50,857 bases of DNA, taken from the NCBI GenBank assembly GCA_000767215.1, contig AXCX01000004.1:1-50857 (forward strand), in the 5' to 3' direction. This document shows, piece after piece, positions 24,047-45,871 of the stretch. A model generated the notes under the pieces. That model saw nothing but the letters and a program-made list of their open reading frames with translations. It had not been told where the DNA came from and ran no database searches. The stretch comes from Actinotalea fermentans ATCC 43279 = JCM 9966 = DSM 3133 (lineage in GTDB: Bacteria > Actinomycetota > Actinomycetes > Actinomycetales > Cellulomonadaceae). Made by a program: the position numbers and the translations under genes. Each line of letters starts with the position of its first letter. Position 1 is the first letter of the stretch.

Positions 24047-24069
24047 AGTCCGCATCTAGTCCGCAACTC
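24047..24069 (+). repeat. att left-arm repeat, copy 1
   Basis: AGTCCGCATCTAGTCCGC is a direct repeat of AGTCCGC. The same element lies exactly 115 bp before the other two tRNA-Lys repeats (35956, 45701). It is a candidate arm-type integrase site. Confidence 0.7.
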
Positions 24070-24161
24070 GGCGAGAACGGGCCCTCACGAACGAGAGAGG
24101 TCGGGAGGCATCACCCCAGGTCAGACCCGCAGAGGGCACCACGACCAGGCGCCGCCTCCCC

Positions 24162-24218
24162 CACCACAAGCGACTTTTAATCCGCGGGTTGTGGGTTCGA
24201 TCCCCACGGGGCCCACGT
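24162..24218 (+). repeat. Attachment site repeat 1 (3' part of tRNA-Lys(TTT))
   Basis: 57 bp shared with 36071-36127 and 45816-45871. It starts CCACCACAAGCG and then carries the anticodon loop CTTTTAA, stem TCCGC, T-arm GTGGG/CCCAC around TTCGATC, and the acceptor strand GGGGCCC. The 5' half of the tRNA is absent, so this is an att scar and not a gene. A gcaggtcag-like motif lies at -45 and an exact one 6 bp after the end. Confidence 0.85.
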
Positions 24219-24402
24219 TTCCGCAGGTCAGAGCGTTGTTGATCTTGCCGAGTCGGCTCGGAAGTCGTGGTCATCTGGTCCGCGGGTTGTGAATGCCAAC
24301 CTCAAGGCGAGTCTGGTATCTGCGCAGGTCAGCGGCCCGGACGTCCTCGCCGCGGTCGAGCCGCGCGGGCCGGGTCCGCATCTAGTCCGCATCTAGTCCG
24401 CA
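24219..24402 (+). repeat. Right-arm repeats with degenerate att unit
   Basis: GCAGGTCAG occurs at 24224 and 24324, 100 bp apart. Between them TCCGCGGGTTGTGAATGCC (about 24279) resembles the tRNA core. At 24374-24402 GTCCGCA occurs three times. The 460 bp between cmtR and arsM hold only these att elements and no gene. Confidence 0.6.
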
Positions 24403-24465
24403 CTTGGTCAGCAGCGGGTGACGCCGGCGAGCCGTCACCCGCCCGCGGATGCTGGCCGGTATTGC

Positions 24466-25233
24466 CTACCCCCGGGGCTTCGTCGCCCGGACGATCGCGC
24501 CGTGGAGGCCGTCGGCAACCTCATGGGTGAAGGTGACGTCGGCGCCCTCGAATCCGGCGCTGGCGAGGATCTCCAGGTACTCGGAGCGGGACAGTGCGCC
24601 GGCGATGCAGCCGACGTAGCTGCCGCGTTCGGCGCGTTGGGCGGGGGAGATGTGGTCCTCGGCGACGACGTCGGACACCCCGAACCGCCCGCCGGGCGCC
24701 AGGACTCGGAAGGCCTCGCGGAGGACGGCGGGCTTGTCGACGGAGAGGTTGATGACGCAGTTGGAGATGATGACGTCGATGTCGCCGTCGGCGAAGGGCA
24801 GGTTCTCGATGGCGCCCTCGCGGAACTCGACGTTCGTGGCTCCGGCCTTTGCGGTGTTGGCGCGGGCGAGGTCGAGCATCTCGGGGGTCATGTCGACGCC
24901 GTAGGCGAACCCGGTCGGTCCGACGCGGCGGGCGGAGAGCAGGACGTCGATCCCGCCGCCGGAGCCGAGGTCGAGGACGACGTCGCCTTCGCGTAGCTCG
25001 GCGACCATCAGGGGGTTGCCGCATCCGAGGGAGGCCAGGACTGCCTCGGCCGGCAGTCCCTCGACGTCGTCGGCGGCATAGAGGCCGGCGCCGAACAGGT
25101 CGGCGTCGGCTCCCACCTCTGCACAGCAGCTGGCCGCCCCGTCGGCCGGCCCGCAGCAGCCGCTGCCGACGGCGGTGGCCGCCAGGGCGTAGCGTTCGCG
25201 GACTTCGTCCCTGAGCGCGTCGGTCTCGGTCAC
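24466..25233 (-). CDS. arsM: Arsenite S-adenosylmethionine methyltransferase
   Basis: The 255-residue enzyme methylates As(III) to mono-, di- and trimethyl arsenicals using SAM. The SAM site is VLDLGSGGGIDVLL. Conserved ArsM Cys are seen in SLGCGNPL, SNCVINLS and YVGCIAG. The N-terminus has two extra Cys pairs (GCCGP, SCCAE). The start GTG 25233 has AGGAGGA upstream. It is divergent from arsR and arsP, with a shared operator. MAs(III) made here is the substrate of ArsP. Confidence 0.95.
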   Translation of the reverse strand: MTETDALRDEVRERYALAATAVGSGCCGPADGAASCCAEVGADADLFGAGLYAADDVEGLPAEAVLASLGCGNPLMVAELREGDVVLDLGSGGGIDVLLSARRVGPTGFAYGVDMTPEMLDLARANTAKAGATNVEFREGAIENLPFADGDIDVIISNCVINLSVDKPAVLREAFRVLAPGGRFGVSDVVAEDHISPAQRAERGSYVGCIAGALSRSEYLEILASAGFEGADVTFTHEVADGLHGAIVRATKPRG

Positions 25234-25275
25234 TGGTCCTCCTCAGCGAGGCGCCGCGATCAGGGCGCCGGTTTG

Positions 25276-25293
25276 CATCGACAGGTGTCAATG
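25276..25293. promoter_or_regulatory. ArsR-type operator between arsM and arsR
   Basis: CATCGACA-GG-TGTCAATG is a near-perfect palindrome (7 of 8 pairs), centred between divergent arsM and arsR. It probably controls both. Confidence 0.65.
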
Positions 25294-25347
25294 TACCGGT
25301 GACGTTGGTCCCTCGTCCGCCCGGATCGGCGGTCGTACGTTTCGAGT

Positions 25348-25659
25348 GTGACTGATTCAAGCGTGGTTGATGTGACGCTGACCCGCGCAGAGCGGATCGA
25401 GCTCCTGCAGGCCGTGGCCGATCCGGTGCGGTGGGCGGTGCTGGAGGAGCTCGCGGACACGACCAAGTGCGTCTGTGACATCCGGAAGCGGGTGCCGGTG
25501 CCGGCGAACCTGCTCAGCTACCACTTGAAGGTGCTGCGCGACACCGGGCTCGTGACGGCCACGCGACGCGGTCGGTGGATCGACTACGCCCTCGCCGACG
25601 ACGCCCGCCGGCTCATGCACGCGGCCCTCCCGGGCGGCCCGGCGGAGGGGCCCGCATGA
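25348..25659 (+). CDS. arsR: ArsR family repressor
   Basis: The 103-residue winged-helix protein has the metalloid motif TTKCVCDIRKRV and LLSYHLKVLRDTGLV. It differs from the arsR copies at 21587 and 35305. It starts at GTG 25348 with no clear ribosome site. Its stop overlaps the arsP start (ATGA), so it likely autoregulates arsR-arsP and divergent arsM. Confidence 0.92.
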   Translation: MTDSSVVDVTLTRAERIELLQAVADPVRWAVLEELADTTKCVCDIRKRVPVPANLLSYHLKVLRDTGLVTATRRGRWIDYALADDARRLMHAALPGGPAEGPA

Positions 25660-26702
25660 GCGTCACCGAGCGGCTGCGCGTCACGACCCCGGTCGGTCGA
25701 TGGGTGGGTCTGGGCCTGGCCGCGGCTGCCTGGGCGGGTCTCTACGCGCTCAACGAGGTCGTCTGGACGTGGCTGGTGGGTGACGTCGTGGGGGCGGACC
25801 TCGAGGACCGCGTGCCCGGCGCCGTGCACTTCTTCCTCTACGACGTCTCCAAGATCTTCCTCCTGCTGTCGGGGCTGATGTTCGTCATCGGACTGGCGCG
25901 CGCGAGCCTGGACGTGGAGCGGGCGCGCGCCTACCTCGAGGGCAGGGGCTTGTTCGTGGGCCTGGTCCTGGCGGTGGTCCTCGGTGCGGTGACGCCGTTC
26001 TGCTCGTGCTCGTCGATCCCGTTGTTCATGGGGTTCGTCGCGGCGGGCATCCCGCTGTCGGTGACCCTGACGTTCCTGGTCGCCTCGCCGCTGATCAGTG
26101 AGATCGCAGCGATCATGATCGGCGACCAGTTCGGCTGGGGGATCGCCGCCGCCTACGTGGCCGCCGGGGCGGTCGTCGCGCTGCTGATCGGGTGGGTGTT
26201 CTCCCGCCTGCGCCTGGACCGCTGGGTCGAGGACATGGTCTTCGCGACGAGGATCGCGACCCTGCGTGCCGACGGCCACGTGCCCACGTGGGCCGAGCGC
26301 ATCGACGCCGCCAAGGCCGAGACCCGCGAGATCTTCGGCAAGGTCTGGAAGTGGGTGCTGGTCGGCGTGGCCATCGGCGCGGCGATCCACGGCTGGGTCC
26401 CGGCGGAGTTCTTCGCCGACGTCGCGGGCGCCGACAACCCGCTAGCGGTCCCGATCGTGACGCTCGCGGGCATGCCGCTGTACGTCAACGGCGCGGGCGT
26501 CGTCCCGATCGCCGAAGCCCTGTGGAGCAAGGGCATGCCGCTGGGCACGGTCATGGCCTTCACGATGAGCGCGATCGCCCTGTCGATCCCCGAGGCCGTG
26601 ATGCTCCGCCGCGTCCTCAAGCCGCCGCTGCTCGCGATCTTCTTCGGCGCGGTCGTCGTCGGAATCGTCGCCGTCGGCTACTTCTTCAACGCCGTCCTGT
26701 GA
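25656..26702 (+). CDS. arsP: Permease ArsP for trivalent organoarsenicals
   Basis: The 348-residue permease (DUF318 type) exports methyl-As(III) and aromatic arsenicals. It has about eight helices, the metal-site loop TPFCSCSSIPLFMGF (about 111), and the second conserved motif GMPLYVNGAG (about 272). It is coupled to arsR by ATGA. With ArsM it forms a methylate-and-export route. Confidence 0.92.
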   Translation: MSVTERLRVTTPVGRWVGLGLAAAAWAGLYALNEVVWTWLVGDVVGADLEDRVPGAVHFFLYDVSKIFLLLSGLMFVIGLARASLDVERARAYLEGRGLFVGLVLAVVLGAVTPFCSCSSIPLFMGFVAAGIPLSVTLTFLVASPLISEIAAIMIGDQFGWGIAAAYVAAGAVVALLIGWVFSRLRLDRWVEDMVFATRIATLRADGHVPTWAERIDAAKAETREIFGKVWKWVLVGVAIGAAIHGWVPAEFFADVAGADNPLAVPIVTLAGMPLYVNGAGVVPIAEALWSKGMPLGTVMAFTMSAIALSIPEAVMLRRVLKPPLLAIFFGAVVVGIVAVGYFFNAVL

Positions 26703-26725
26703 CCCACCCACCGAAGGGAACCACC

Positions 26726-26980
26726 ATGAAGATCAAGGTCCTGGGCCCCGGCTGCGCCAACTGCGTCAACCTCGAGAGGGCGACGCGCGAGGCGGTCGCT
26801 GCGCTCGGCATCGACGCCGAGATCGAGAAGGTCACCGACTACGCCGCCATCGTGGGCTACGGCATCATGCGCACCCCCGGCCTCGTGGTCGACGAGCAGG
26901 TCGTGCTCTCCGGCCGCGTTCCGACGGCAGCGCAGGTGCGAGACATCCTCGCGCCGCTCGTCGCCGGCGCTGCCCGGTGA
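26726..26980 (+). CDS. Small thioredoxin-fold protein 1 (CANC)
   Basis: This 84-residue protein follows the pattern of the small redox-active disulfide family often next to ArsP permeases: MKIKVLGPGCANCVNLE, then DYAAIVGYGIMRTPGLVVD with the cis-Pro. It may reduce or carry As at the membrane. The start ATG 26726 has GAAGGGA upstream. The next gene is its paralogue. Confidence 0.88.
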   Translation: MKIKVLGPGCANCVNLERATREAVAALGIDAEIEKVTDYAAIVGYGIMRTPGLVVDEQVVLSGRVPTAAQVRDILAPLVAGAAR

Positions 26981-27032
26981 GCCTCTGACGTCGCCCGCCC
27001 GCCCACTCTGACCGGCCTGACGAGGGACCGAG

Positions 27033-27278
27033 ATGAAGATCACCGTCCTGGGCCCGGGCTGTCCCAGCTGCCTGAGCCTTGAGCGGGCGATGCGCGAGGC
27101 GGTCGCTGCGCTCGACCTGGACGCCGAGCTGGAGATCGTCTCCGACTACGCGGCGATCCTCAGCTACGGGATCATGAGCACCCCCGCGCTGGCGATCGAC
27201 GGGACCGTGGTGGTCGTGGGCCGCGTCCCCAAGGCCGCGGCGCTCCGCGAGCTGCTCTCCCAGGCGGCCGCGCGGTGA
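27033..27278 (+). CDS. Small thioredoxin-fold protein 2 (CPSC)
   Basis: This 81-residue paralogue of the preceding protein shares the core but has the site GPGCPSCLSLE and STPALAID. The pair probably arose by tandem duplication. Its stop overlaps the acr3 start (GTGA). Confidence 0.88.
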   Translation: MKITVLGPGCPSCLSLERAMREAVAALDLDAELEIVSDYAAILSYGIMSTPALAIDGTVVVVGRVPKAAALRELLSQAAAR

Positions 27279-28390
27279 CGGGGCCGATGAGCACGCCCAC
27301 CGGCGCTCCCTCCGGCGACGCCGGTCGCACCACTGCGGTGGGCCCCGCCCGGCTCCAGGCCCATCTGAGCCGATGGTTGATGCTCTACGCGCTCGGTTCG
27401 ATGCTCGTCGGCGTCCTCGTGGGCTACCCCCTGCGGGACTGGACCTCCCGCCACACCGACGACCTGGGGACGGTCACCACGATCTCGGTGTTCCTGGTGA
27501 TCTACCCGATGATGGTCAACCTCCGCGTGGAGGCCTTGGCCCGTGCCGGGCGCAACGTGCGCGGGCTCGCTCTGGCGCTGGTCTACAACTTCGTGTGGGC
27601 GCCCGCGGTCGGCTTCGTGCTCGCGCGGCTCTTCCTGCACGACCACCTGCTTGCGCTCGGGTTCCTGCTGGTCATGGTGGTGCCGTGCTCGAGCATGAGC
27701 ATCGCCTACACGGGCCTGGCCAAGGGTGACGTCGAGCTGGCGACGGTGGTCGTCGGGACGAGCTTCGTCCTGGCCGTGGTCGTGGTGCCGGCATGGATGG
27801 CGGTCTTCGCCTCCGGGTACGACCTGGACGTGCCGATCGGCTCGATGGTCGTGTCCATCGTCACGGTGCTGATCGGGCCGATGATCGCCGGGTGGCTCAC
27901 GCGGGTGGGCGTCGCCCGGTGGCGGGGCCCGGCCGTCATGGGGCGCCTTCAGCCCGCCTTCTCCGCGGCGTCGATGCTCGCGATGTTCGCCACGATCTTC
28001 GGCATCTTCTTCAGCAAGGCCACGATTATCGTGGACCGCTGGAGCACCGTCCTGCTCCTGCTCGTGCCCAACGCCCTGTTCATGGCGCTGACCTTGGGTG
28101 TGGCGACCTGGGTGAACCGTCGGCTCGGGCTGAGCTACGAGCAGTCGGTCGCGGTCGTGTTCGCCTCCGCGGGCAAGAACAACGCCACCGCCATCGCGAT
28201 CGCCGCGACCGCCTTCTCACCGCTGGTCGCTGTGCCGGCGGCCACGATGCCGATCTTCCAGGTGATCTTGATGGTCGGCTTCCTCCGGCTCGCGCCCCGG
28301 GTTCGCGCGTACTACGCGCCGCGCATCACCCGCCCGACTCCCGGCGCGGCATCGCCGGCCGGTCACCTCGAAGAATTGGAGAAGACATGA
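27275..28390 (+). CDS. acr3: Arsenite exporter Acr3
   Basis: This 371-residue BASS-family protein exports As(III). It has ten helices in outline, with the Acr3 signatures MVVPCSSMSIAYTGLAKGD (Cys in helix 4) and FASAGKNNATAIAIA (helix 9). Acr3 works without ArsA in most hosts. Start GTG 27275 overlaps the previous gene and the stop overlaps the next one, so it lies in a tight operon. Confidence 0.93.
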   Translation: MTGPMSTPTGAPSGDAGRTTAVGPARLQAHLSRWLMLYALGSMLVGVLVGYPLRDWTSRHTDDLGTVTTISVFLVIYPMMVNLRVEALARAGRNVRGLALALVYNFVWAPAVGFVLARLFLHDHLLALGFLLVMVVPCSSMSIAYTGLAKGDVELATVVVGTSFVLAVVVVPAWMAVFASGYDLDVPIGSMVVSIVTVLIGPMIAGWLTRVGVARWRGPAVMGRLQPAFSAASMLAMFATIFGIFFSKATIIVDRWSTVLLLLVPNALFMALTLGVATWVNRRLGLSYEQSVAVVFASAGKNNATAIAIAATAFSPLVAVPAATMPIFQVILMVGFLRLAPRVRAYYAPRITRPTPGAASPAGHLEELEKT

Positions 28391-28722
28391 CCAGCACGGC
28401 CCCCGCCCGCACGCCGATGGACATCCTCGGCGCGGTCTCGCCCGAAGGCGCCAGCACCTACCTGGCGCACCGCGCCGCGATCATGGACAACCCTGCGCTC
28501 AGCGCGCTGCCGACCAAGGACAAGCTCCTCATCGGGATCGGCGTCGCCGCCGCGCTGCAGTCCTCGACGTGCACCCTCATGTGGACCCGGCAGGCCAAGA
28601 ACGCCGGTGCCAGCGACGCCGAGATCGCCGAGGCGGTGCTGGTCGCCCGGTTGATGAAGATGGCCACCGTGAACGACACCGCAGCCGACGCCCTCGCCTG
28701 GCTCGAAGCCCAGCAGCAGTAG
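28387..28722 (+). CDS. Carboxymuconolactone decarboxylase/AhpD-like protein
   Basis: This 111-residue protein has the AhpD-like helix pattern (KDKLLIGIGVAAALQSSTC then LMWTRQAKNAGASDAEIAEAV). The usual CxxC appears as CTLM, with only the first Cys, so disulfide-reductase activity is doubtful. It overlaps the acr3 stop. Some As loci carry such proteins; the role is unknown. Confidence 0.85.
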   Translation: MTSTAPARTPMDILGAVSPEGASTYLAHRAAIMDNPALSALPTKDKLLIGIGVAAALQSSTCTLMWTRQAKNAGASDAEIAEAVLVARLMKMATVNDTAADALAWLEAQQQ

Positions 28723-28750
28723 CCGTCGCACCCGGCAGGAGGAAGAGCCC

Positions 28751-29509
28751 GTGGACACCGGCACGATCATCGTCGTCGCGGTCGGCCTGCTCGCGCTCTC
28801 GGTCGCCTCGGGGATGCTCGGGCTCGGCGTCGCGTTCGCCGCCGTGCCGTTCCTGGGCTTCTTCATGGGCGACCTGGTGCACGAGGTGCAGCCGCTGAGC
28901 CTGTTCCTGAACGGGGTGACCGCGATCTTCGCGGCGGTCGGATTCGCCAAGAGCGGCCTGGTCGCGTGGCGGCCTGCGCTGATGCTCACCGCGGTGACGG
29001 CCGTCGGCGCCCCGCTCGGCTCCTGGCTGGCGCAGGGCACCAGCCAGGCGTGGCTGTGGGGCCTCTACCTGGTCGCCGTGGCGTACCTCGCCTTCCGGAT
29101 GTTCCAGAAGGGAGGGGGCCCGAGGGAGGGTGCCGCCCAGCATCCCCGGCTCGGCCTTGCCCTGATCCTCGCGGTCCCGATCTCGGTCGTGGCGGGCCTG
29201 CTGGGCGTGGGGCCGGGCTTCCTGCTGATGCCTGTGCTGATCCTCGCCGGGTACGAGCCGAAGCTTGCCGCGGGCATCAACGCCGTGGCCGTGACGATGC
29301 CCTCGTTCACCGCGCTGATCCCGCACGTGGACACCGCCGAGGTGGACCTGCGCGTGGCCACCGTCCTGGTGGTCGTCGGCGCCGCAGGTTCCTTCCTCGG
29401 GGCCCGGCTGACCAGCCGGTTCGTCTCCGGCCCCACGCTCAAGCGGGTATTCGGCATCCTCATCGTCGTCATGACGGCCGTGAAGATCGTCACGATGGCG
29501 GTGGGCTGA
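28751..29509 (+). CDS. Sulfite exporter TauE/SafE family protein
   Basis: This 252-residue membrane protein has the duplicated TauE/SafE pattern (SGMLGLGVAFAAVPFLG and GLLGVGPGFLLMPVL) in about eight helices. Members export sulfite or other organosulfur anions. Why it sits in an arsenic operon is unclear; sulfur flux or a thio-arsenic species are possible. The start is GTG 28751. Confidence 0.85.
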   Translation: MDTGTIIVVAVGLLALSVASGMLGLGVAFAAVPFLGFFMGDLVHEVQPLSLFLNGVTAIFAAVGFAKSGLVAWRPALMLTAVTAVGAPLGSWLAQGTSQAWLWGLYLVAVAYLAFRMFQKGGGPREGAAQHPRLGLALILAVPISVVAGLLGVGPGFLLMPVLILAGYEPKLAAGINAVAVTMPSFTALIPHVDTAEVDLRVATVLVVVGAAGSFLGARLTSRFVSGPTLKRVFGILIVVMTAVKIVTMAVG

Positions 29510-29553
29510 CGGGGTGAATGCGGCGAAGCTGGAGTCTTGAAGGGACGCTGAGA

Positions 29554-29904
29554 GTGAAGTCGGAGATCGCCGCGACGCGGACCCCGCGTCCGTCCTGCGC
29601 ATTGGTGGGCAGCTCGATCACGGACGCGGAGGCGGCCGAGCTCGCCCACCGCCTCAGGGCGATCGCCGAGCCGGGCCGGCTCCGCCTGCTCTCGCTGATC
29701 GCAGCGCACGAGAACCACGAGGCATGCGTCGCCGACCTCACAGATCTCGTCGGGCTCAGTCAGCCGACCGTCTCCCATCACCTGAAGGTCCTCGTCGAGG
29801 CCAGGTTCGTGACGCGCTCCAAGCGCGGCGTCTTCGTCTACTACGCGCTCGAGCCGGACGCCCTCGGCATCCTCGGCCGACAGGTGGAGGCCACCTGCTG
29901 CTGA
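29554..29904 (+). CDS. arsR: ArsR family regulator
   Basis: The 116-residue repressor has HEACVADLTDLVGLSQ, PTVSHHLKVLVEARFV, the wing GVFVYYALE and a C-terminal VEATCC. The single Cys near helix 3 and the terminal Cys pair are candidate As(III) ligands. Start GTG 29554 is preferred; ATG 29518 would add 12 residues. It ends the plus-strand operon and converges on arsC. Confidence 0.88.
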   Translation: MKSEIAATRTPRPSCALVGSSITDAEAAELAHRLRAIAEPGRLRLLSLIAAHENHEACVADLTDLVGLSQPTVSHHLKVLVEARFVTRSKRGVFVYYALEPDALGILGRQVEATCC

Positions 29905-29937
29905 CAGCCCGTTCCACGATCGTCCGGACCGTCGTGC

Positions 29938-29955
29938 ACGCACTTCGGCGTGCGT
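29938..29955. terminator. Hairpin between convergent arsR and arsC
   Basis: ACGCAC and GTGCGT (6 bp) flank TTCGGC. It lies in a 63-bp gap between convergent stops. Confidence 0.5.
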
Positions 29956-29967
29956 ATGTGTGACGAC

Positions 29968-30405
29968 TCAGGCGCGCGCCACCGGGACGCCGAGCTCGCC
30001 GAGCAGCGCCTCGACCCGACCGCGGATCTCATCGCGGATGGGGCGGACGGAGTCGATCCCCTGGCCGGCCGGGTCGTCCAGCTTCCAGTCCTCGTAGCGC
30101 TTGCCGGGGAAGATCGGGCAGACATCGCCGCAGCCCATCGTGATCACGACGTCGGAGGCCTGGACCGCCTCTGTGGTGAGCACCTTGGGCTGCTCGGCGC
30201 GGATGTCCACGCCCTCCTCGAGCATCGCCTCGACGGCGACCGGGTTGATCTGGTCGGCGGGCATGGACCCTGCGGACCGGACCTCGACTGCGCCGCCGGA
30301 CAGGTAGGTCAGCCAGCCGGCCGCCATCTGCGATCGTCCGGCGTTGTGCACGCAGACGAACAGCACGCTGGGGCGGGTGGTCTGCGGTGCGGTCTGGTCG
30401 GTCAC
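29968..30405 (-). CDS. arsC: Arsenate reductase, LMW-phosphatase fold, mycothiol type
   Basis: The 145-residue enzyme reduces As(V) to As(III). The P-loop is VCVHNAGRSQMA, and GCGDVCPIFPGKRYEDW follows, as in actinobacterial ArsC enzymes that use mycothiol and mycoredoxin. A catalytic Asp lies in LDDPAGQG. It is 26 bp downstream of the ArsR-ArsC fusion gene on the same strand. Confidence 0.93.
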   Translation of the reverse strand: MTDQTAPQTTRPSVLFVCVHNAGRSQMAAGWLTYLSGGAVEVRSAGSMPADQINPVAVEAMLEEGVDIRAEQPKVLTTEAVQASDVVITMGCGDVCPIFPGKRYEDWKLDDPAGQGIDSVRPIRDEIRGRVEALLGELGVPVARA

Positions 30406-30431
30406 GCTGGGTCCTCCTGGATGGGTGTGGG

Positions 30432-31448: not shown

Positions 31449-31461
31449 CCGGTCCTCCCGT

Positions 31462-31499
31462 GGATTCGAGGCTAGTCTAATTAGACTGGGCTCGAATCC
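31462..31499. promoter_or_regulatory. 38-bp palindromic operator upstream of the ArsR-ArsC fusion
   Basis: Outer arms GGATTCGAG and CTCGAATCC are perfect. The centre AGTCTAATTAGACT is a perfect 14-bp palindrome. Only the three-base GCT/GGG linkers fail to pair. It may be an operator, and could also end the upstream arsB transcript. Confidence 0.7.
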
Positions 31500-31508
31500 G
31501 CAACGAGG

Positions 31509-32978: not shown

Positions 32979-33055
32979 GGGCGGGTCTCCAAGCGCGGGT
33001 CGGTTGGGGCGCCGCGAGGCGCGGCACTGAGTTCGGTGGACAGGTCAGGCGGGCG

Positions 33056-34840: not shown

Positions 34841-34841
34841 G

Positions 34842-36054: not shown

Positions 36055-36070
36055 CCAGCCACCCAACTCC

Positions 36071-36127: not shown

Positions 36128-36404
36128 TCGCCGCAGGTCACGGCGTTGCTGACCATGAGTCTCTTTCGACCGAGGAATCGACAGGCGGCCCCTTCCTCGC
36201 GTACCTGTTCGCACTCTCGGGCGCGTCTGTGCAGGTCAGGCGGCTGTGGACCTTCAACCGGTCGCACGGGAGTACGCGTGGACCTAGGGTCCACGGGTTG
36301 CGCATTCGCACCGACGCCAAACCAGACATCACTGCAGGTCAGCCTGTAGGGCGCGCGTACGCGGCACGACGATGGGCAACGCCTGGTCCGCATTCCGTCC
36401 GCAG
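36128..36404 (+). repeat. Right-arm repeats, three units
   Basis: GCAGGTCA(G) occurs at 36133, 36231 and 36334, about 100 bp apart. A core-like TCCACGGGTTGCGCATTCGC lies near 36289. GTCCGCATTCCGTCCGCAG ends the array at 36386. There is one unit more than next to copy 1. Confidence 0.6.
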
Positions 36405-36892: not shown

Positions 36893-39800
36893 GTGTCCGT
36901 GCACGCCCCGTCCGCCATCGCCGCCCCGAGTCGCCGACTGCGAGGCGCCTGCGCAGCGCTAGCGACCAGCGCGCTCCTCATCACGGGAGCCCTGGTGCAA
37001 CCTGCCGCGGCCGCCGGATCGGCGCCGGTCCTGAAGCCGGCGGAGCCGTTCATGGTGCAGAACGGAGGCGTCACCGCTTCGGTATGGTCCGACGATCCGG
37101 GCGTCGCCGGCGGCACGGCAACGCTGAGGCTCGCGCCGACCACGGGGGATGTCCCGGAGGGCGCCGTCTCCGAGGTTGCGACGTTCGCGGCGACCGACGC
37201 CTCGGGGGCGGCCCTCACCCGGTGGCCGGGCGCGGCCGCCTTGTCGGGCGGCCTAGTCGATGAACCATGGTCCGCGGAGCTGTCGGCGCCCGGTGTGGAG
37301 GTGGCGTTCGCTCGCGAGGCGCTCGAGGTGCGTGACGACGCGCTGACGACGCTCCAGGTCTGGCACCGCACGACCGACGATGCGGAGTGGGCCCCCGTGC
37401 CCTCGGCCTGGCTGCCGGCCCGCGGCGCAGTCGTGGCGCAGGCGGACTCCACAGGGGACTTCGTCGTGGCTCCGTCGGCTCCGCGGGCTGCCCCAGTGGT
37501 GGCGCTGGACCTCGACGACGACGCGGCACGCGCCATGTGGGACGGCGAGGTCGTCGGAGAGCTCCCGACGACCGCGGCCGTGGCGGAGCTGTTCGAGGGG
37601 TACGTCGAGGACGCGTGCATGGCCGACGTCCTCATCACTCGGTCGGCCGAGACCGCCGTCGTGGATCCGGCCATGCGAGCCGCGGCGGTCACCCGCACCC
37701 GCCCGACGCTCGCTCTGACGCTCGGCTTCGACGCTACCGACGGCCTTCCCGGGGGCACTGCCGAGACCGGCGGCGCGCGCGTCTGGAGCACCGACACCGC
37801 ACTAGCCGCCGCGATGACCGACGCCCTCGTGACGTACACGGGTCGGCCGGCGCGAACGGTGGACTCCACAGAGCTTGGGACCGCTCGGCCGGTCGCCGAC
37901 GCGGCCCAGGTCGCCGACGCCACCTACGCCCGAGTCGAGCTCGGTTACCTGGACCACAACTACGACCACGCGGTGATCGCACATCGTCCCGAGCTCTACG
38001 CCCAGGCCCTCGCGCGGGCCGTCGTCAGCACCCTGGATCGATCCGGCGAGTGCTGGCCGAGGCCTTCGGCAGCCGCCGGGACCGTCGTGGCGGGTGGGCA
38101 CGGCTTCTCCAGGGGGACCGACGCGCACGTCCTGCCGATGGCGGAGGGGGACGAGGGCTCCTGGTGGGGCGGGGTGAACCAGCGCTTCGAAGAGGTCGAC
38201 GAGGGCGGCGTCACGGCGACGTACTCGGTCACCGCCTTCCCGGCCGAGGGCGAACCGGGAACCGTGCGGGTGAACGCCTCGTGGGACATCGACCCGCACC
38301 AGGACATGCTCTCGAGGTTCTGGACGGCCATCCGCGAGGTCGGCTGGTGGCTGGACATCGTGGTCGCGAGTCTGGGCGAGGGGTCCGGGGACTTCGAGCT
38401 CTACCCGGCCTTCAGCCCCGTGTTCTCGTACGACCCAGCCACGGGCAACGCTTCGTCGCTCGGCAACATCTCGTCCTGGGTGAGCTACCGCGTCGACGGC
38501 GACTGGGACGGCCACGTCTACGTGCTCAACTCCAGCGACGACCCGATCCTGGCCTGGACCGCGCCGTGGGCCGCTCCCCCGCTGCCGCCGGGGCCGTTCC
38601 TCCCCCTGCCGCCCGACCGGGACGTGCTCGCGCTGCTCGCCGGCTATGGCCTGACGTACGAGCAGATCTACGGCGGCGACCCGGTGAACCTGGCCACCGG
38701 CAACGTGACACAGAGCGAGGAGCTGCTCGCCCTGACCGGCGTCGGCGACCAGATGATCGACCTCACCCTCACGTACAACGGCGGTGACGGGCGCATCACC
38801 CCCGTCGGTCGGGGCTGGAACTTCGCGTACTCGGCCTGGGCGCAGAAGTACGACGGCGGCGGGGTACTCATCACCGGCGCGAACGGCCAGGGCCTGTACT
38901 TCACCCCCGATGGCGGCGGCTACGCGTCCCCGCCCGCCGCTCGGGCGACGCTCGCCAAGACGGCCGACGGCGTCGTCCTGACCCGCATCGACGGCACGCA
39001 GGAGACCTACACGATCGATCCGCTCACCGGCACGGGCGTCCTTACTGGCGTCGTCGACCGCCAGGGCAACGCCTACACGCTCGCCTACGCCAGCCGCGCG
39101 CGCGGCGGGGAGGGAGCGGTTTTCGCCCCCCTGGCTTCGATCACGGACGAGGGTGGCCAGCAGGTCGTCGTCACCACCACGAGCACGGGGCGGATCACCG
39201 GGTTCACCCGCCCCGACGGCGCCGCCTGGACCCTCGGCTACGACGGCGACAACCTGACGTCGATCACCGACGCCGCCGGGCACACCCGGTCCTTCGCCTA
39301 CGACGACGCCGGCTACCTCACCTCCATCACACGCGCCGACGGCGTCGTCGAGGTCACCAATGCCTACGACCTCGACCACCGTGTCGCGGTCCAGGTCGAC
39401 GGCAGAGGCCTGCGGCGCACCTTCGCCTACGACGGCGACGGCACCACCACCCTCACCGACGCCCTGGGCAACAGCAGCACCGTCGTGCACGACGACGCTG
39501 GCCTGCCCGAGCGCACGATCGACGCCGCCGGCGGAGTCACGCGCACGGAGTATGACGATGCGCGTAACCCGGTGACCTCGGTCGACGCCCTGGGCAACGA
39601 GCACCACTCGACCTTCGACGCCACAGGCCGGGTCCTGACCACCACCGATCCTCTCGGCAACACCACTACGTCCGCCTACAACGCCGCCGGCGACCTGACC
39701 TCGAGGACCACCACGGCGCCGGACGGCTCGAACGCGACGACCACCTTCGTTCTCAACGAGGACGGCCGTGCAGTCGAGACGCACCTGCCTGACGGCACCG

Positions 39801-42800
39801 TGATGACGGCGGCGTACGACGCGCACGGCGACGTCACCTCGGTCACGGACGCTGCGGGCAACACCACCCGGCACTCCTACGACGCCCGCGGCAACCGCGT
39901 CCAGACCGTCGACGCGGAGGGCGGCACCAGCACCTTCGAGTTCGACCTAGCCAATCGGCTCACCGCCTCGACCGACCCCACGGGAGCCCGAACCGTCTAC
40001 ACCTACGACGGCGACGACAATGTCGTGTCGGTGACCGACCCGATCGGCGCGGTGACCAAGCACGAGTACGACGCCACCGGGACACGCACGTCCACGACCG
40101 ACCCGCTCGGAAACGTCACCCGGTTCGAGCACAACGCGAACCTCCAGATCACCGCCGAGATCGCGCCCGACGGGGCACGCACCGAGTTGGCCTACGACGA
40201 CGAGCACCACGTCACCACTCGGACCAACCCGGACGGCACGACCGTCACGTTCACCTACGACGCCCTCGGGCGGCAGGTCAGCATCACCGATGAGGCCGAC
40301 GCCACGACCACCACCGAGTACGACGCCGTCGGGAACCCGGTCGCGGTCGTGGACGCCGAGGGCGGAAGGACCACGTCGAGCTTCGACGCCCTCGGTCAGG
40401 TCACCTCGGTGACCGACCCGCTCGGCCACACCACCTCCACCACCTGGCTCCCCGGCGGTCTGGTGGGCCAGCAGACGGACGCCATCGGCGGCGTGACCGC
40501 GCGCACCTACGACGTGATGGGCCGGCTCACCGGCGTGACGACCCCGGACGCCGCGACCACTACCTACACCTACGACCCGGTGGGCAACATCGCCACGATC
40601 ACCGACCCTCGTGGCGGCGTCACAGCCTTCGCCTACGACGCCCTCGGCCGGCAGGTCAGCAGGACAGACGCGACGGGCGCGGTCTGGACCACGGAGTACG
40701 ACGGCGCGGGCCGCATCGTCACAACCACGGACCCCACGGGCGCCACCACGACCAACGCCTACGACGCGGCCGGGCACCTGGTTGCCACCACCGACCCCAC
40801 CGGCGGCACAACGTCCACGACGTACGACGCCGCCGGACGCGTCACCGCGAGCACCGATCCGCTCGGCCGGGTCACCACGCTCACCTACGACGAAGCCGGC
40901 CGCGTCCTCACCGTGACCGACCCCACAGGTGCGGTGACCACGCAGGCCTACGACGAGGCAGGCCGCCTCGCCCAGCTCACCGACGCCCGAGGCCAGGTCA
41001 CCACCTACGGCTACGACCCCACCGGCCGGCGCACCCTCATGGTCGACGCGGCCGGCGGTCACTGGACCACGGAGTACGACCGCCTGGGCCGCGCGTTGGC
41101 CGAGACAGACCCGACGGGTGCCCGCACCGAGTACACCTACGACGCCGCCGGGCGCCGAGTCGAGGTCACCGACCCCACGGGTGCGACGACGACGACCAGC
41201 TACGACACGCGCGGTGTGGCAGCGGTGGTCACCGACCCGGTGGGCGGCCGCACCACCGTCGAGTCCGACCCGATGGGCCGGCCCCTCACGATGACCGATC
41301 CGACCGGCGCCATCACCCGGATCGCCTACGACGCCGCGGGTAACGCGACCACCGTCACGGACGCGAACGGCCACACCACGACGACCGTCTTCGACGCGGC
41401 CAACCGCCCGGTGTCCGTCACCGACGGCACCGGAGCGGCGACCCTGACCGCCTACGACGTGGCAGGTCGGCCCGTCAGCGTCACCGACCCGCTCGGCCAC
41501 GCCACGACCACGGAGTACGACGCCGCAGGGCGCCCCGTCGCCGTCACGGACCCGACCGGCGCCACGACCACGACGGTGTATGACGCCGCAGGCCAGGTGG
41601 TCAAGGTGACCGACCCACTCGGCCGCATCACCCGCTACGCCTACGACGGCACCGGGCGCGTCACCGAGGTGGCGCGACCCGACGGAACGACGATCACCTC
41701 CGCGTACAACCCGACCGGCCAGATGGTGGCCCAGACCAATGGCCGCGGCCACACCATCGAGCTGGTCGTGGACGCCCTTGGTCGGCCCATCGCCATGACC
41801 GACGAGGCGGGCCAGGACTGGGCCACCACCTACGACGCTCGAGGCATGGTCACGGCCACCACCGACCCGCTCGGTGGCACCACGACGACGGAGTACGACG
41901 CCGCTGGCCGACCCGTCGCGGTGACCGACCCGACGGGCGGCATCACCAAGACGACCTACGACGCTCGCGGCCTCGCCGTGGTGACGACCGACGCCGTCGG
42001 CAGCCAGACGACTCTCACGTATGACGGTGCCGGACGGCAGCTCACCATGACGCTCCCCTCCGGTGCGACGTGGACCCAGACGTGGGACGGCGTCGGGAAC
42101 CTCCTGACCTCGACCGACCCGACCGGGGCGACGACGTCGAGCACCTACGACGCCGCCGACCGGCCCGTCACGATCACCGACGCCACCGGCGCGACCACCA
42201 CGACCGCCTACGACGCCGCGGGACGCGTCGTAGCAACCACGGACCCGGTCGGCGCGACGACGGCCACGGCCTACGACGCCGTCGGCCGTCCAACCTCCGT
42301 CACCGACGCCGAGGGCAACACGACCACCTACGCCTACGACTCCGTCGGGAACCTCGTGACCCGGACGACGCCGAGGGGCGGGGTCACCGCGTGGGAGTAC
42401 GACGCGATGGACCGGCCCGTGCAGGTCACGGACGCCGAAGGCGGGGTGACCGCGACCGTGTACGACGGCCAGGGCAACGCCGTGACGGTGACCGACCCCG
42501 TCGGGGTCGTCAGCGCCATGACCTACGACCCGCGCGACCTGCTCACCGCCGTCGTCGAGAACGCCCTCCCGGACACCCCGGCGGGACCGGCGGTGAACGT
42601 CACCACGCAATACGCCTACGACGACGCCGGCCGCCTCTCCTCGGCGACCGACCCCCGCGGGAACACCACCGCTTACGCTCGTGACGCTGCCGGTCGTGTG
42701 ACGGCGACCACGGATGCGGCCGGGCGTGTCAAGGCGACGGCGTACGACGCCGCCGGCCGGCCGGTCACGGCGACCGCGCCGGATGGCCAGGTCACCGCTA

Positions 42801-45301
42801 CGGCGTACACGCCGGACGGGCAGGTGGCCTCGGTTGCCTACCCCGACCACGCCGTCACGTTCGGGTACGACGCCGTTGGTCGACGCACCTCCATGAAGGA
42901 TCCGATGGGGACCAGCTCGTGGGTGTACGACCCGGTGGGCCGGGTCACGAGGGCACAGGACGCCTCCGGTGCTGTCATCGGCTACGTCTACGACGCCGCA
43001 GGCAACCAGGTGCAGGTCTCCTACCCCGACGCGCGACGCCTCACCCGGGAGTTCGATGCCCGCGGCCTCGCGACCACGCAGGCAGACGCCACCGGCACGA
43101 CTCGGTTCTCCTACGACGCTGACGGGAACCTGTCGGTGACATCCCGGCCGACCGGGGTCGTAACCTCGCTGACGCGCGACCTCAACGGACGCGTCACCGG
43201 GATGACGCACACCGGCAGCGGCGCGGCACCCGGGACCTCCCCGGCGGGGAACTCGTCTGCGAACGCGCCGGGCAACGCCTTCGGCCACTGCAAGGACAAC
43301 CCGACGGGCCACCCGAACCAGCAGCCTGCCTGCACCACCTCGACCCTCGTCGTGTCCTACACCTACGACCCGCGCGGCCTGGTGACCACGCGGACCGTGA
43401 CCACGGACGAGGCGATTACGACCACCGAGTACGCGCACGACGCCCTGGGCCGCCTGGTGTCATCCACGACCGGCGGGTACGTCGCCACGTACGGGTGGGA
43501 TGCGGCGTCGAACCTGGTTGCGGAGGTGACGTCGGACGACCCGACCACCCCCATCGACGCGGACGGATGGTCCGCGCTCCGCTCGGTCAACGCGATCAAC
43601 CAAACCACGACGATCGTGACCGACTACGCACACGCCCCGGTCCCGCACACCGAGACGGTCGCGCTCACCTATGACTTGCGGGGGAACCGGACCGGGCAGA
43701 CCACGACGACGACCTCGGGCGGTGCCACGCACACGCAGGCACGCATCGCCTACGCCTACGACGCCGCCGACCGGCTGGTCCGCGAACACGACGCCGGGGC
43801 GAACCTCAACAACGCCCGCGACGACATCATCACCACCTGGGGCCGGGACGGCCTGGGCAGGGCACTGGTCGAGACGCAGAACGGCACCGCCCAACGCCGG
43901 GTGTTTGACGGGTCGCTGGCCGTGGCCGACGGGCCCACGCGGATCACCCGCGGGCCTGCCGGCGAAGCGCTGGTGGAGACCACGGACACCGTCGTGGGTC
44001 ACGGCCGCAACGCCACGACGGTCCCGGTGGCGGTCGACGTGCTCGCCGACCTCCTCGGCACCCCGCTGAGCATTGCCGAGGCCGGGGTGGTTTCCGACGA
44101 CCTGGCCTGGACCGGCGCCTTCGGCAATGTCGTCGCCACACCCGGCTGGGACACCGTCACGGGCTACACCGGGCACCTGGAGGCGGCCGGGCTGGTCGAG
44201 ACGCCCACCCGCACCTACGACCCCGCATCACGGGTGTGGGTGCAGGAGGACACCTGGCCGGGCACCGCTACGGTCGCCGCGACGCAGAACCGGTACACCT
44301 ACGCCCAGGGCGCCCCGGAGACCCTGGTCGACCCGACCGGGCGGATGGCCGCCCAGGCGGCGATCCTGGCCCAACGGCTGCCCGCGGAAGAACTTGCCTA
44401 CGTCCTGGGGCTCATGGCGATGTGCCGGGTGTTCCCCGCGGAGAACCAGTGCCGGCCCTTCGAGGACGACGGCGTGCCGACGTGGACGCAGATGGACCTC
44501 GACACCTACCGCTCCAACCTGCAGGCCGCGATGGTCGGCCTGCAGTACGGCATGGAGCAAGGCACCATCAGCCCCGACCGCGCGACCGCCGTCGCCCAAG
44601 CGATGCGACTGCTCAAGCTCGGCGTGCCCACGGACTTCATGAGCCCCCAGGAAGCGTTCGAGTCCCTTGGAGCCACGGCGGCCGGGGCGCTGGTCGCTGG
44701 TGGGGTCTTCGTGATCTGCGAAGCAGGCACCGGAGGGGCGGGCAGCTACGGCTGCGCCTTCATCGCCGGCGCAGCCGGCGGTGCCACAACGGCGGCGCTT
44801 GGCTACACCACGTCGACCCCGCAGTATCGTTGGGACGGGGGTGATGCCTCCCTGTACATCGGCACGGGCGCTCTCATCGGCGGCACACTCTCGGTGGCCG
44901 GACGGGGCTTCTTCGGACCGGGCACCAGCGGAAGCGCGGCGGGGCCTGGCACGGCTAACACCGCGCCAGCGTTCGGCTCCCTCTCAAATGCGGAGGCCCG
45001 CGCTTGGTATCTTGCTCAAGAGCAGCAAATCGCAGCCCGAAACGCAGAGATGATCGCCGCCGGGGTTCCCGCCGAGGTCCGTGCCCAGATGGCATTTGAG
45101 GCGCGAAACGCAATACGTTCACAGGCGCGTGCCGCAATGTCCGATCGGGAGGCGGCTGCCGCGCTTTCACGGTCGGATCCGAATCTCACCTGGGAACAGG
45201 TGCTCCAGAAGTATGACGGGGACTTCGACGCCATTGCACAGGCTGCATCGAGGTCGCGAACATCCGTGAACCAGCAGTACGGATTGGGGGAGCAGAGGTG
45301 A
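36893..45301 (+). CDS. Giant secreted Rhs/YD-repeat polymorphic toxin
   Basis: About 2,802 residues. GTG 36893 has GGGGG upstream and starts a Sec-type signal peptide (LATSALLITGALVQPAAAA). Residues about 240-380 resemble an Amidase_3 fold end (ARVELGYLDHNYDHAVI). From about 595 there is the DUF6531-like entry (GDPVNLATGNVTQSEE), then several dozen YD repeats (YDAAGRV-type with DPTGATTT), which build a hollow shell. The Rhs core end is near 2445-2484 (NRYTYAQGAPETLVDPTGR). The last 318 residues are a Gly/Ala hydrophobic segment and an unrecognised toxin tip ending ASRSRTSVNQQYG. The tip DNA is visibly less GC-rich than the repeats. Confidence 0.93.
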   Translation: MSVHAPSAIAAPSRRLRGACAALATSALLITGALVQPAAAAGSAPVLKPAEPFMVQNGGVTASVWSDDPGVAGGTATLRLAPTTGDVPEGAVSEVATFAATDASGAALTRWPGAAALSGGLVDEPWSAELSAPGVEVAFAREALEVRDDALTTLQVWHRTTDDAEWAPVPSAWLPARGAVVAQADSTGDFVVAPSAPRAAPVVALDLDDDAARAMWDGEVVGELPTTAAVAELFEGYVEDACMADVLITRSAETAVVDPAMRAAAVTRTRPTLALTLGFDATDGLPGGTAETGGARVWSTDTALAAAMTDALVTYTGRPARTVDSTELGTARPVADAAQVADATYARVELGYLDHNYDHAVIAHRPELYAQALARAVVSTLDRSGECWPRPSAAAGTVVAGGHGFSRGTDAHVLPMAEGDEGSWWGGVNQRFEEVDEGGVTATYSVTAFPAEGEPGTVRVNASWDIDPHQDMLSRFWTAIREVGWWLDIVVASLGEGSGDFELYPAFSPVFSYDPATGNASSLGNISSWVSYRVDGDWDGHVYVLNSSDDPILAWTAPWAAPPLPPGPFLPLPPDRDVLALLAGYGLTYEQIYGGDPVNLATGNVTQSEELLALTGVGDQMIDLTLTYNGGDGRITPVGRGWNFAYSAWAQKYDGGGVLITGANGQGLYFTPDGGGYASPPAARATLAKTADGVVLTRIDGTQETYTIDPLTGTGVLTGVVDRQGNAYTLAYASRARGGEGAVFAPLASITDEGGQQVVVTTTSTGRITGFTRPDGAAWTLGYDGDNLTSITDAAGHTRSFAYDDAGYLTSITRADGVVEVTNAYDLDHRVAVQVDGRGLRRTFAYDGDGTTTLTDALGNSSTVVHDDAGLPERTIDAAGGVTRTEYDDARNPVTSVDALGNEHHSTFDATGRVLTTTDPLGNTTTSAYNAAGDLTSRTTTAPDGSNATTTFVLNEDGRAVETHLPDGTVMTAAYDAHGDVTSVTDAAGNTTRHSYDARGNRVQTVDAEGGTSTFEFDLANRLTASTDPTGARTVYTYDGDDNVVSVTDPIGAVTKHEYDATGTRTSTTDPLGNVTRFEHNANLQITAEIAPDGARTELAYDDEHHVTTRTNPDGTTVTFTYDALGRQVSITDEADATTTTEYDAVGNPVAVVDAEGGRTTSSFDALGQVTSVTDPLGHTTSTTWLPGGLVGQQTDAIGGVTARTYDVMGRLTGVTTPDAATTTYTYDPVGNIATITDPRGGVTAFAYDALGRQVSRTDATGAVWTTEYDGAGRIVTTTDPTGATTTNAYDAAGHLVATTDPTGGTTSTTYDAAGRVTASTDPLGRVTTLTYDEAGRVLTVTDPTGAVTTQAYDEAGRLAQLTDARGQVTTYGYDPTGRRTLMVDAAGGHWTTEYDRLGRALAETDPTGARTEYTYDAAGRRVEVTDPTGATTTTSYDTRGVAAVVTDPVGGRTTVESDPMGRPLTMTDPTGAITRIAYDAAGNATTVTDANGHTTTTVFDAANRPVSVTDGTGAATLTAYDVAGRPVSVTDPLGHATTTEYDAAGRPVAVTDPTGATTTTVYDAAGQVVKVTDPLGRITRYAYDGTGRVTEVARPDGTTITSAYNPTGQMVAQTNGRGHTIELVVDALGRPIAMTDEAGQDWATTYDARGMVTATTDPLGGTTTTEYDAAGRPVAVTDPTGGITKTTYDARGLAVVTTDAVGSQTTLTYDGAGRQLTMTLPSGATWTQTWDGVGNLLTSTDPTGATTSSTYDAADRPVTITDATGATTTTAYDAAGRVVATTDPVGATTATAYDAVGRPTSVTDAEGNTTTYAYDSVGNLVTRTTPRGGVTAWEYDAMDRPVQVTDAEGGVTATVYDGQGNAVTVTDPVGVVSAMTYDPRDLLTAVVENALPDTPAGPAVNVTTQYAYDDAGRLSSATDPRGNTTAYARDAAGRVTATTDAAGRVKATAYDAAGRPVTATAPDGQVTATAYTPDGQVASVAYPDHAVTFGYDAVGRRTSMKDPMGTSSWVYDPVGRVTRAQDASGAVIGYVYDAAGNQVQVSYPDARRLTREFDARGLATTQADATGTTRFSYDADGNLSVTSRPTGVVTSLTRDLNGRVTGMTHTGSGAAPGTSPAGNSSANAPGNAFGHCKDNPTGHPNQQPACTTSTLVVSYTYDPRGLVTTRTVTTDEAITTTEYAHDALGRLVSSTTGGYVATYGWDAASNLVAEVTSDDPTTPIDADGWSALRSVNAINQTTTIVTDYAHAPVPHTETVALTYDLRGNRTGQTTTTTSGGATHTQARIAYAYDAADRLVREHDAGANLNNARDDIITTWGRDGLGRALVETQNGTAQRRVFDGSLAVADGPTRITRGPAGEALVETTDTVVGHGRNATTVPVAVDVLADLLGTPLSIAEAGVVSDDLAWTGAFGNVVATPGWDTVTGYTGHLEAAGLVETPTRTYDPASRVWVQEDTWPGTATVAATQNRYTYAQGAPETLVDPTGRMAAQAAILAQRLPAEELAYVLGLMAMCRVFPAENQCRPFEDDGVPTWTQMDLDTYRSNLQAAMVGLQYGMEQGTISPDRATAVAQAMRLLKLGVPTDFMSPQEAFESLGATAAGALVAGGVFVICEAGTGGAGSYGCAFIAGAAGGATTAALGYTTSTPQYRWDGGDASLYIGTGALIGGTLSVAGRGFFGPGTSGSAAGPGTANTAPAFGSLSNAEARAWYLAQEQQIAARNAEMIAAGVPAEVRAQMAFEARNAIRSQARAAMSDREAAAALSRSDPNLTWEQVLQKYDGDFDAIAQAASRSRTSVNQQYGLGEQR
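39200..43140 (+). repeat. Tandem YD-repeat coding tract
   Basis: Coding units of roughly 60 bp repeat TACGACGCC and ACCGACCC themes along this stretch. It is internal protein-repeat DNA of the Rhs gene and a likely target for recombination and assembly error. Confidence 0.8.
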
Positions 45302-45552
45302 TCGATCTTACGAGTCTGATGCGCATGCCGCTGCACTGGGAACCTGACGCGACTCGCGAGCTCTGGCTGAAGGCTTCAATCGACGATGGCGAAGTCTTCA
45401 TCCGGATGAACCGCTTCCCGGAGGAGCACATGTACAGCCTTGAGCTGGGCGACGGGAAATTCACCGACTTCGATGACTTCCCGCCAACGTGGTCTCGCGG
45501 CGCACTGGCCTGGCCTGAGACGGCCCTACCTCGCTGGAATGCAGACTCGTAG
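45298..45552 (+). CDS. Putative immunity protein to the Rhs toxin
   Basis: The 84-residue acidic protein starts at GTG 45298, overlapping the Rhs stop (GTGA). It has two Trp-rich turns (LHWEPDATRELWLKA, PTWSRGALAW) and FTDFDDF. Immunity genes directly follow Rhs toxin tips, and coupling by overlap fits. No family is recognised. The lower GC matches the toxin tip. Alternative: a toxin-associated chaperone. Confidence 0.7.
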   Translation: MIDLTSLMRMPLHWEPDATRELWLKASIDDGEVFIRMNRFPEEHMYSLELGDGKFTDFDDFPPTWSRGALAWPETALPRWNADS

Positions 45553-45700
45553 GGGTCACGCCGCTCGACGAGGCTATGAAGGCGATCCCTATCGTGACTT
45601 CGTCGGTCGATTGGACGGATGGACCTGGCCGACACAGCGAGCCCAGAGGGCTGAGTGACGGCATCTCGGCCATCTGGCGAACAGCGAGGCGATGCACGGC
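45553..45700. other. Intergenic stretch, possible gene remnant
   Basis: A plus-strand frame here ends GYEGDPYRDFVGRLDGW near 45600-45640, without a good start of its own. It may be the tail of a displaced second tip or immunity gene. Nothing firm. Confidence 0.25.
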
Positions 45701-45723
45701 CAGTCCGCACCTAGTCCGCAACT
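45701..45723 (+). repeat. att left-arm repeat, copy 3
   Basis: One base differs from the other two copies (CAC for CAT). It is again 115 bp before the core, and GCAGCTCAG lies 45 bp before the core (45771). Confidence 0.7.
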
Positions 45724-45815
45724 GACCGAGAAAGGGCCCTCAAAGACAAGAACCGTCGGAAGGCATCGCTGCAGCTCAGGCCGACTTTCGGCCCTCTTGC
45801 CAGCCGCTCGAACTG

Positions 45816-45871
45816 CCACCACAAGCGTCTTTTAATCCGCGGGTTGTGGGTTCGATCCCCACGGGGCCCAC
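45816..45871 (+). repeat. Attachment site repeat 3, island-chromosome junction
   Basis: 56 bp matching the other two copies. Unlike them, no GCAGGTCAG follows at +6, which fits this being the displaced original tRNA 3' end with chromosome to the right. Confidence 0.8.

Follow-up and report, generated by a model that had tools for sequence, protein, structure and literature searches.

Accretion of an integrative and conjugative element (ICE) with a cis-mobilizable element (CIME) is reportedly exemplified by ICESt1 of Streptococcus thermophilus. The passages of PMC5704250 that deal with such elements define a CIME as an element without integration and transfer genes that has retained attL and attR; CIME-ICE tandems and their transfer are also mentioned there, together with a model of tandem accretion. 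We analyzed a stretch of 50,857 bases from Actinotalea fermentans (the window), which is the whole of contig C313 in a draft genome of 841 contigs and 3.6 Mb, and compared it with the genomes of the same bacterial family. With a probability of roughly 80%, we regard the window as the tRNA-distal portion of a composite, ICE-CIME-CIME, formed by accretion at tRNA-Lys(TTT). The order would be tRNA-Lys, an ICE (~62.6 kb), a cassette with arsenic resistance (ars) genes (11.9 kb), a cassette with an Rhs gene (9.7 kb), and the chromosome.

The att copies and their right arms

Three att copies (R1, R2, and R3) were located in the window by repeat search plus alignment, and all of them carry an exact 43-bp stretch that corresponds to the 3' portion of tRNA-Lys(TTT), starting in the anticodon loop. 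Between R2 and R3 the identity extends to 56 bp, and R1 deviates at one base within the extra 13. When the window and contig C212 of the same draft were scanned on both strands (181,070 positions), full 42-base core matches were found at R1-R3 and in an intact tRNA-Lys on C212 only, the next-best match being 26/42. Each of the three cores is preceded by a AGTCCGCA pair at -127/-116 from the core start (11 bp apart) and by a GCAGGTCAG-like site at -58. The whole draft has five copies of the exact pattern AGTCCGCANNNAGTCCGCA (the pair with a free spacer), four in the window and one on C212 beside the tRNA, and the reversed control of this pattern gave no match in the whole draft genome. On the other side, GCAGGTCA lies 6 bp past the 43-bp core of R1 and R2, at 24223 and 36133. 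A preliminary description of this DNA had reported direct repeats at three sites, motifs 115 and 45 bp ahead of them, and a motif 6 bp past the core in repeats 1 and 2. The repeats were found again, the three-way exact stretch being 43 bp; the two distances are the same spacings as ours, measured from that description's own repeat start; and the post-core motif stands at both positions.

We compared the 127 bp ahead of the core, ungapped, among 21 right ends at tRNA-Lys. The results showed that the right ends of R1, R2, R3, Cellulomonas marina, Actinotalea sp. K2, and one site of a relative assembled as a single contig (G099) were 69-83% identical to one another, and that the 12 right ends with other integrases (from 11 genomes) and the three other right ends of G099 were 19-36% identical to those six. 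The comparison was redone as gapped local alignment, as the ungapped version had missed a likeness between the G099 ends G099_1 and G099_3/4. Two right ends of genome G048, which have degenerate cores and had been left out of the ungapped comparison, were added. The gapped scores were 72-153 within the six, 17-23 between them and the 12 ends plus the two of G048, and 16-17 between them and the three remaining G099 ends, the 95% point for shuffled sequences being 25.

The tyrosine integrase on C212 has counterparts of 89-100% identity in 3 of 221 family genomes, namely its own, Actinotalea sp. K2 (G079), and C. marina (G171); the K2 and C. marina enzymes are 89-95% identical to it, and the nine other matches at E <= 1e-60 have identities of 42-44%. 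The exact paired motif was present at at least one end of the tRNA-Lys element in all three of these genomes. C. marina has a solitary complete element within the 80 kb fetched, consisting of tRNA-Lys, a left arm, the integrase (95% identical), and, ~25 kb on, an att core with the same right arm; 2,265 bp from its integrase onwards are 92% identical to C212. The exact arm pattern GTCCGCAYCTAGTCCGCAAC matched two stretches in genome_contigs, one in Actinotalea sp. K2 and one in C. marina, and none in viral_contigs. As judged from these alignments, the right arm tracks the integrase and not the tRNA target. Since right arms are alike only among the ends of this integrase family, the ars and Rhs cassettes belong to that family. 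The likeness of the right arms and the integrase beside the tRNA would thereby give the cassettes sites of the same integrase family as the neighbouring ICE, as expected for CIMEs.

Pairs of AGTCCGCA 11 bp apart with any spacer were found in 39 of the 221 genomes, often as AGTCCGCAGAGAGTCCGCA, and one such pair in G099 (C1:3352933) lies beside an integrase at C1:3352331-3352855. A wider group of integrases may use these pairs as arm sites. The cargo of the C. marina element (C31:37252-53985) looks like a defence cluster, with a DpdE match of 1015 bits and DruE-like, DrmMI-like, and restriction-like matches, the first gene having been scanned partly.

The neighbouring ICE, the probable chromosomal flank, and the proposed layout

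ARAGORN detected no tRNA genes in the window. A search of the draft placed the intact tRNA-Lys(TTT) at C212:1306-1380, followed by GCAGGTCAG at +21 and by paired AGTCCGCA at +83/+94; offsets after a core start at the end of the 34-base core used for scanning, 9 bases before the 43-bp core ends. The integrase of C212 (377 aa, 4807-5940, minus strand) matches PF00589. The contig also encodes a Prim-Pol protein and an 85-aa HTH_17 protein, which we read as a putative Xis-like excision protein. A MobF/TrwC relaxase and an SCO6880-family protein scored above the NCBIfam cut-offs, a TraG-type type IV coupling protein (T4CP) above the Pfam cut-offs, and a VirB4-like and an SCO6881-like protein both under the NCBIfam cut-offs. 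We take this gene set to be that of an actinobacterial ICE with a type IV secretion system. C212 and window positions 1-24173 together contain an integrase, the Xis-like protein, a relaxase, a coupling protein, and a mating-pair ATPase, and the ICE part of the window also holds ArsA and cation efflux genes. The bounds of the ICE, dependent on the join between the two contigs, would be the tRNA-Lys and left arm on C212 and the right arm and core at R1.

Sequence comparison strongly suggests that C212 adjoins the window without overlapping bases, because one copper P-type ATPase gene is split between them. C212 stops inside this gene (516 residues called), and window positions 1-807 encode a 268-residue C-terminal half; on the copper ATPase structure 3rfu_A the C212 half covers 79-478 and the window half 487-735, in the same orientation. 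The ends of C212 and the window have no exact overlap and no common 20-mer. There are seven E1-E2 ATPase matches in the draft, and, apart from this pair, the one on C544 alone runs off a contig end by its coordinates. It was rejected as a partner of the window start, as it looks like a different type and has no 12-mer in common with that start. The preliminary description had proposed a search upstream of the window for an integrase and an intact tRNA-Lys, and C212 provides both. It had named an intact tRNA-Lys with no second att copy at the left as contrary evidence; provided that the join holds, what lies behind the tRNA is the left end of an element of the same family.

R3 is most likely the chromosomal end of the array, because the EAL-domain gene beyond it (47490-48704) has homologues of 53-56% identity that follow tRNA-Lys in three relatives (G050, G113, and G125) and, in Actinotalea sp. 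K2, the distal att copy. Weaker EAL matches in other loci (33-37%) were left out of this argument. G125 has ~410 bp between tRNA-Lys and the EAL homologue and no second core in the 20 kb fetched; this locus is a natural empty site in another species. The next gene of the window, 48706-49020, was considered as proof of the right flank and set aside, as it matches 12 loci, several of them upstream of tRNA-Lys. The intervening 1.6 kb (45872-47489) contain two called genes (46119-46655 and 46770-47171) unmatched in the relatives' loci at E <= 1e-15, and the DNA from R3 to 47490 gave three short weak matches. The preliminary description had found no post-core motif at R3, as it expected at a chromosomal end. 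Chromosomal genes do begin at 47490, but a weaker motif, GGAGGTCAGAGGC, is present 25 bp past the 43-bp core. It resembles the left arm of the ICE, and on this likeness a further, nearly erased element may once have stood between R3 and 47490.

Apart from the contig join, the anatomy of the array is directly visible in the DNA (Table 1).

Table 1. Features of the att array and its surroundings in the window.
Feature	Position	Strand	Basis or remark
ICE right-hand part (copper, other metal, and arsenic genes)	1..24173		inferred continuation of C212; ends at R1
Paired AGTCCGCA arm sites, ICE right end (R1)	24047..24065	+	motif scan
GCAGGTCAG-like site (CCAGGTCAG) preceding R1	24116..24124	+	alignment of motif sites
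R1 att core, tRNA-Lys(TTT) 3' part	24174..24216	+	repeat search, alignment
ars cassette, ~11.9 kb, without integrase	24217..36126		domain search, tblastn
GCAGGTCAG past R1	24223..24231	+	motif scan
Degenerate att core, 26/42, 98 bp past R1 start to start	24272..24313	+	repeat search, core scan
GCAGGTCAG past degenerate core	24324..24332	+	motif scan
Three AGTCCGCA-like arm sites, ars cassette left arm	24373..24402	+	motif scan
Paired AGTCCGCA arm sites preceding R2	35957..35975	+	motif scan
GCAGGTCAG preceding R2	36026..36034	+	motif scan
R2 att core	36084..36126	+	repeat search, alignment
Rhs cassette, ~9.7 kb, without integrase	36127..45871		domain search, tblastn
GCAGGTCA past R2	36133..36140	+	motif scan
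Possible degenerate att core, 22/42, not significant alone	36283..36324	+	core scan; then GCAGGTCAG at 36334, arm-like sites near 36385 and 36396
Rhs gene of 2749 aa with 35 RHS repeat stretches	37052..45301	+	cargo of the Rhs cassette
Paired AGTCCGCA arm sites preceding R3	45702..45720	+	motif scan
GCAGGTCAG-like site (GCAGCTCAG) preceding R3	45771..45779	+	alignment of motif sites
R3 distal att core, last copy in window	45829..45871	+	repeat search, alignment
GGAGGTCAGAGGC past R3, possible remnant of a further left arm	45897..45909	+	alignment, motif scan
Chromosomal flank, EAL-domain gene	47490..48704	+	Pfam; homologues in four relatives

The integrase-less cassettes and their possible mobility

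The preliminary description had assigned to the two bounded segments cargo (arsenic genes; one Rhs gene) and no recombinase, and the domain searches bore this out. Phage_integrase (PF00589) had no match on the window contig, and tblastn searches with the integrase, Prim-Pol, T4CP, VirB4-like, and SCO6880 proteins of the ICE gave nothing in the window at E <= 1. The Xis-like protein gave one 24-residue chance-level fragment in the ars cassette (E 0.74), and MobF one chance-level fragment in the ICE part (E 0.73). A serine recombinase as a hidden mobilizer was rejected, as there was no Resolvase (PF00239) match in the whole draft. Both cassettes are like CIMEs in having neither an integrase nor conjugation genes, and neither has the integrase of its own that an integrative and mobilizable element (IME) would carry.

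The ars cassette contains genes for a methyltransferase (ArsM by plasmid match), ArsP, a thioredoxin-like pair, an SBF protein (Acr3-type), TauE, ArsR, two low-molecular-weight phosphatases (LMWP, ArsC-type), ArsB, ArsA, and ArsD. Some of its frames were identified by eye, and two more ArsR-like frames were named by eye only. In a megablast search the cassette matched 21 plasmid records, and coverage stayed below 80% in every one; among the ten listed it was 3-7%, for the most part through individual ars genes. Near their right ends, the ars cassette and the ICE each have a 2.6-kb stretch with ArsA, ArsD, and ArsR, and the two stretches are 81.7% identical and in the same order, which would suit descent of the cassette from a sibling element of the ICE. 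The Rhs cassette consists of the Rhs gene and, downstream of it, a small frame that matched nothing in Pfam; its likeness to the ends of the ICE and the ars cassette is limited to 82-106 bp of arm. The thioredoxin-like genes (26717-27257) are in tandem and 76% identical at the DNA level over 234 bp, the Pfam scan covering the first of them only.

The cassettes have the exact 43-bp core on both sides and conserved right arms, and their left arms are displaced behind core-like copies. Past R1, GCAGGTCAG sites at +15/+116 flank a core-like copy that stands clear of background as the best imperfect match in the searched sequence (26/42), and three AGTCCGCA-like sites follow. Past R2 the pattern recurs with longer spacing (GCAGGTCAG at +15/+113/+216), and the core-like match at 36283 is within background. 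We read the near-100-bp spaced GCAGGTCAG sites past R1 and R2 as probable decayed att stubs of elements that entered and were mostly deleted. A comparable stretch was noticed in G000 (C171:20588-22072), where tRNA-Gly(CCC) is followed by CTCCGCAGGTCAGAGCGTTGC and a different tyrosine integrase; a close variant of this stretch lies directly past R1, and a more altered copy past R2. GCAGGTCAG may thus serve several integrases in common, as an arm site or an Xis site.

tRNA-Lys arrays were viewed in 16 genomes, comprising 15 of the 30 with two or more matches, picked by eye for spacing, plus C. marina. The tRNA-proximal segment carries a tyrosine integrase in 15 of the 16 (in C. marina the integrase came from the homology search), the exception being G099, and in G134 the second segment carries one too. 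Segments without a tyrosine integrase were limited to the two in the window, four in G099, and two in G048 with degenerate cores. In G099, tRNA-Lys lies at C1:923017-923091 and att copies at 933667, 949088, 953250, and 955580, so that segments of 10.6, 15.4, 4.2, and 2.3 kb span C1:923048-955613. None of the 20 Phage_integrase matches of G099 falls inside 915-970 kb, and this genome had no match to the C212 integrase at E <= 1e-60. One of the four right ends carries the arm type of R1-R3, and the other three have a second arm type that was seen in 1 of 221 genomes (G099 itself) at E <= 1e-6. Two resolvases, which we read as transposon resolvases, are present inside the first segment only. It could be imagined that integrase-less cassettes of cargo plus arm represent a lasting mode of existence at the tRNA-Lys of Actinotalea and not products of decay, in which case they would accumulate, wait, and be picked up by an incoming element with a matching integrase; we consider this unlikely.

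The order in which the units arrived, their decay, and their mobility are what we infer from this anatomy. By accretion, elements of one integrase family would have entered the 3' end of the tRNA gene successively, the newest standing next to the tRNA and the older ones being pushed outward, and the older two would have lost their integration and transfer genes while keeping cargo and att sites. The ICE integrase may still use the sites at R1-R3 and excise single cassettes, and recombination of the tRNA-proximal site with R1 would move the ICE alone, whereas recombination with R2 or R3 would carry one or both cassettes along with it (cis-mobilization). The stacking of cassettes in one tRNA gene by a shared integrase acting in trans, as put forward in the preliminary description, holds in that integrase-less cassettes with the arms of one integrase do stand in one tRNA gene; action in trans, as opposed to cis movement of the whole block, stays a proposal.

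Several observations weigh against this reading. The left arm sites are at +165 to +187 in the ars cassette and at ~+267/+278 in the Rhs cassette, behind core-like copies, compared with +83/+94 in the ICE. With the arms displaced in this way, the att function of both left ends may be lost, which weakens the case for each cassette as an intact mobile unit. The binding of the integrase to the paired motifs is deduced from their co-occurrence, and the join of C212 to the window from the split gene. Finally, no excision, transfer, or same-species empty site was seen, and the mobility of the cassettes is a proposal made from sequence. It is also conceivable that the cassettes have the same origin and are fossil, their left arms being too decayed and only the ICE, from the tRNA-proximal site to R1, still moving. 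In its favour are the core-like copies and the displacement of the arm sites at the two left ends, the small substitutions in the motif sites of R1 and R3, and the retention in G099 of four such segments, all lacking a tyrosine integrase; against it, all three copies have an exact 43-bp core and a right arm with both motif types at constant spacing. We regard it as a serious possibility, though one at somewhat less than even odds.

The segments might have been brought by other tRNA-Lys integrases, the likeness of the arms being incidental: several unrelated integrases use tRNA-Lys in this bacterial family, and the left arms beside R1 and R2 resemble the tRNA-Gly stretch that has a different integrase. 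However, right ends from other tRNA-Lys elements do not rise above background in likeness, gapped or ungapped, and the exact paired motif is absent from the rest of the genome, making this origin very unlikely. Even less credible is a segmental duplication, in which homologous recombination and not site-specific integration would have copied one element end to give the repeats. The 2.6 kb of ars genes common to the right ends of the ICE and the ars cassette could be taken as a trace of such an event, whereas the tRNA core forms the limit of every end, the Rhs cassette has nothing beyond the short arm in common with the other two ends, and the same arm terminates the solitary complete element in another genus. 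Contig-joining errors might also create repeats in a draft as fragmented as this one, in which the window is one whole contig; yet R1-R3 differ in their arms and flanks, and G099, assembled as a single contig, is stacked likewise, so misassembly appears equally far-fetched.

Comparison with known systems

A repeat at a tRNA gene is by itself insufficient to infer common mobility. By way of the right arm, integrase-less islands become assignable to their integrase from sequence, and the arm test makes it possible to predict, for a given orphan cassette, the helper element that could move it; here this applies to metal-resistance and Rhs cargo in actinobacteria.

The published systems are compared as they appear in the parts of the cited papers that deal with them. 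The array resembles the ICE-CIME composites of PMC5704250 in that an ICE stands in tandem with elements reduced to att sites in one target gene. It differs in comprising an actinobacterial ICE, a tRNA-Lys target, two distal CIMEs, and metal-resistance and Rhs cargo; transfer of the tandem is reported there, whereas here it is a proposal. The toxicogenic region of Streptomyces, in which TR1 is a CIME and TR2 an ICE, is likewise an actinobacterial CIME beside an ICE with an internal att site between them, but it occupies the aviX1 site, carries other cargo, and has been reported to excise and transfer (PMC8369830). In the accretion of AICE and DAICE elements at tRNA-Arg in Streptomyces, direct repeats likewise bound several elements plus a remnant at a single tRNA, although those families have different integrases and the units of the window have one arm type in common (PMC9513070). 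At ssrA of Dehalococcoides, tandem islands likewise share one RNA gene, and 15 of them are without an integration module and proposed to be cis-mobilizable; their target is different, and they are held to be mobilizable but not conjugating (PMC3146451). The AICEs of Frankia are, like the present array, in tandem in a tRNA-Lys gene of an actinobacterium, but both Frankia units encode integrases, unlike the cassettes of the window (PMC3218068). No paper on an array of this sort in Cellulomonas or Actinotalea was met in a search of open-licence PMC text. The arrangement itself is thus already known in kind, and what the present locus and its relatives add to it is the arm test, by which orphan cassettes can be linked to an integrase, and the array of G099, in which every segment is an orphan.

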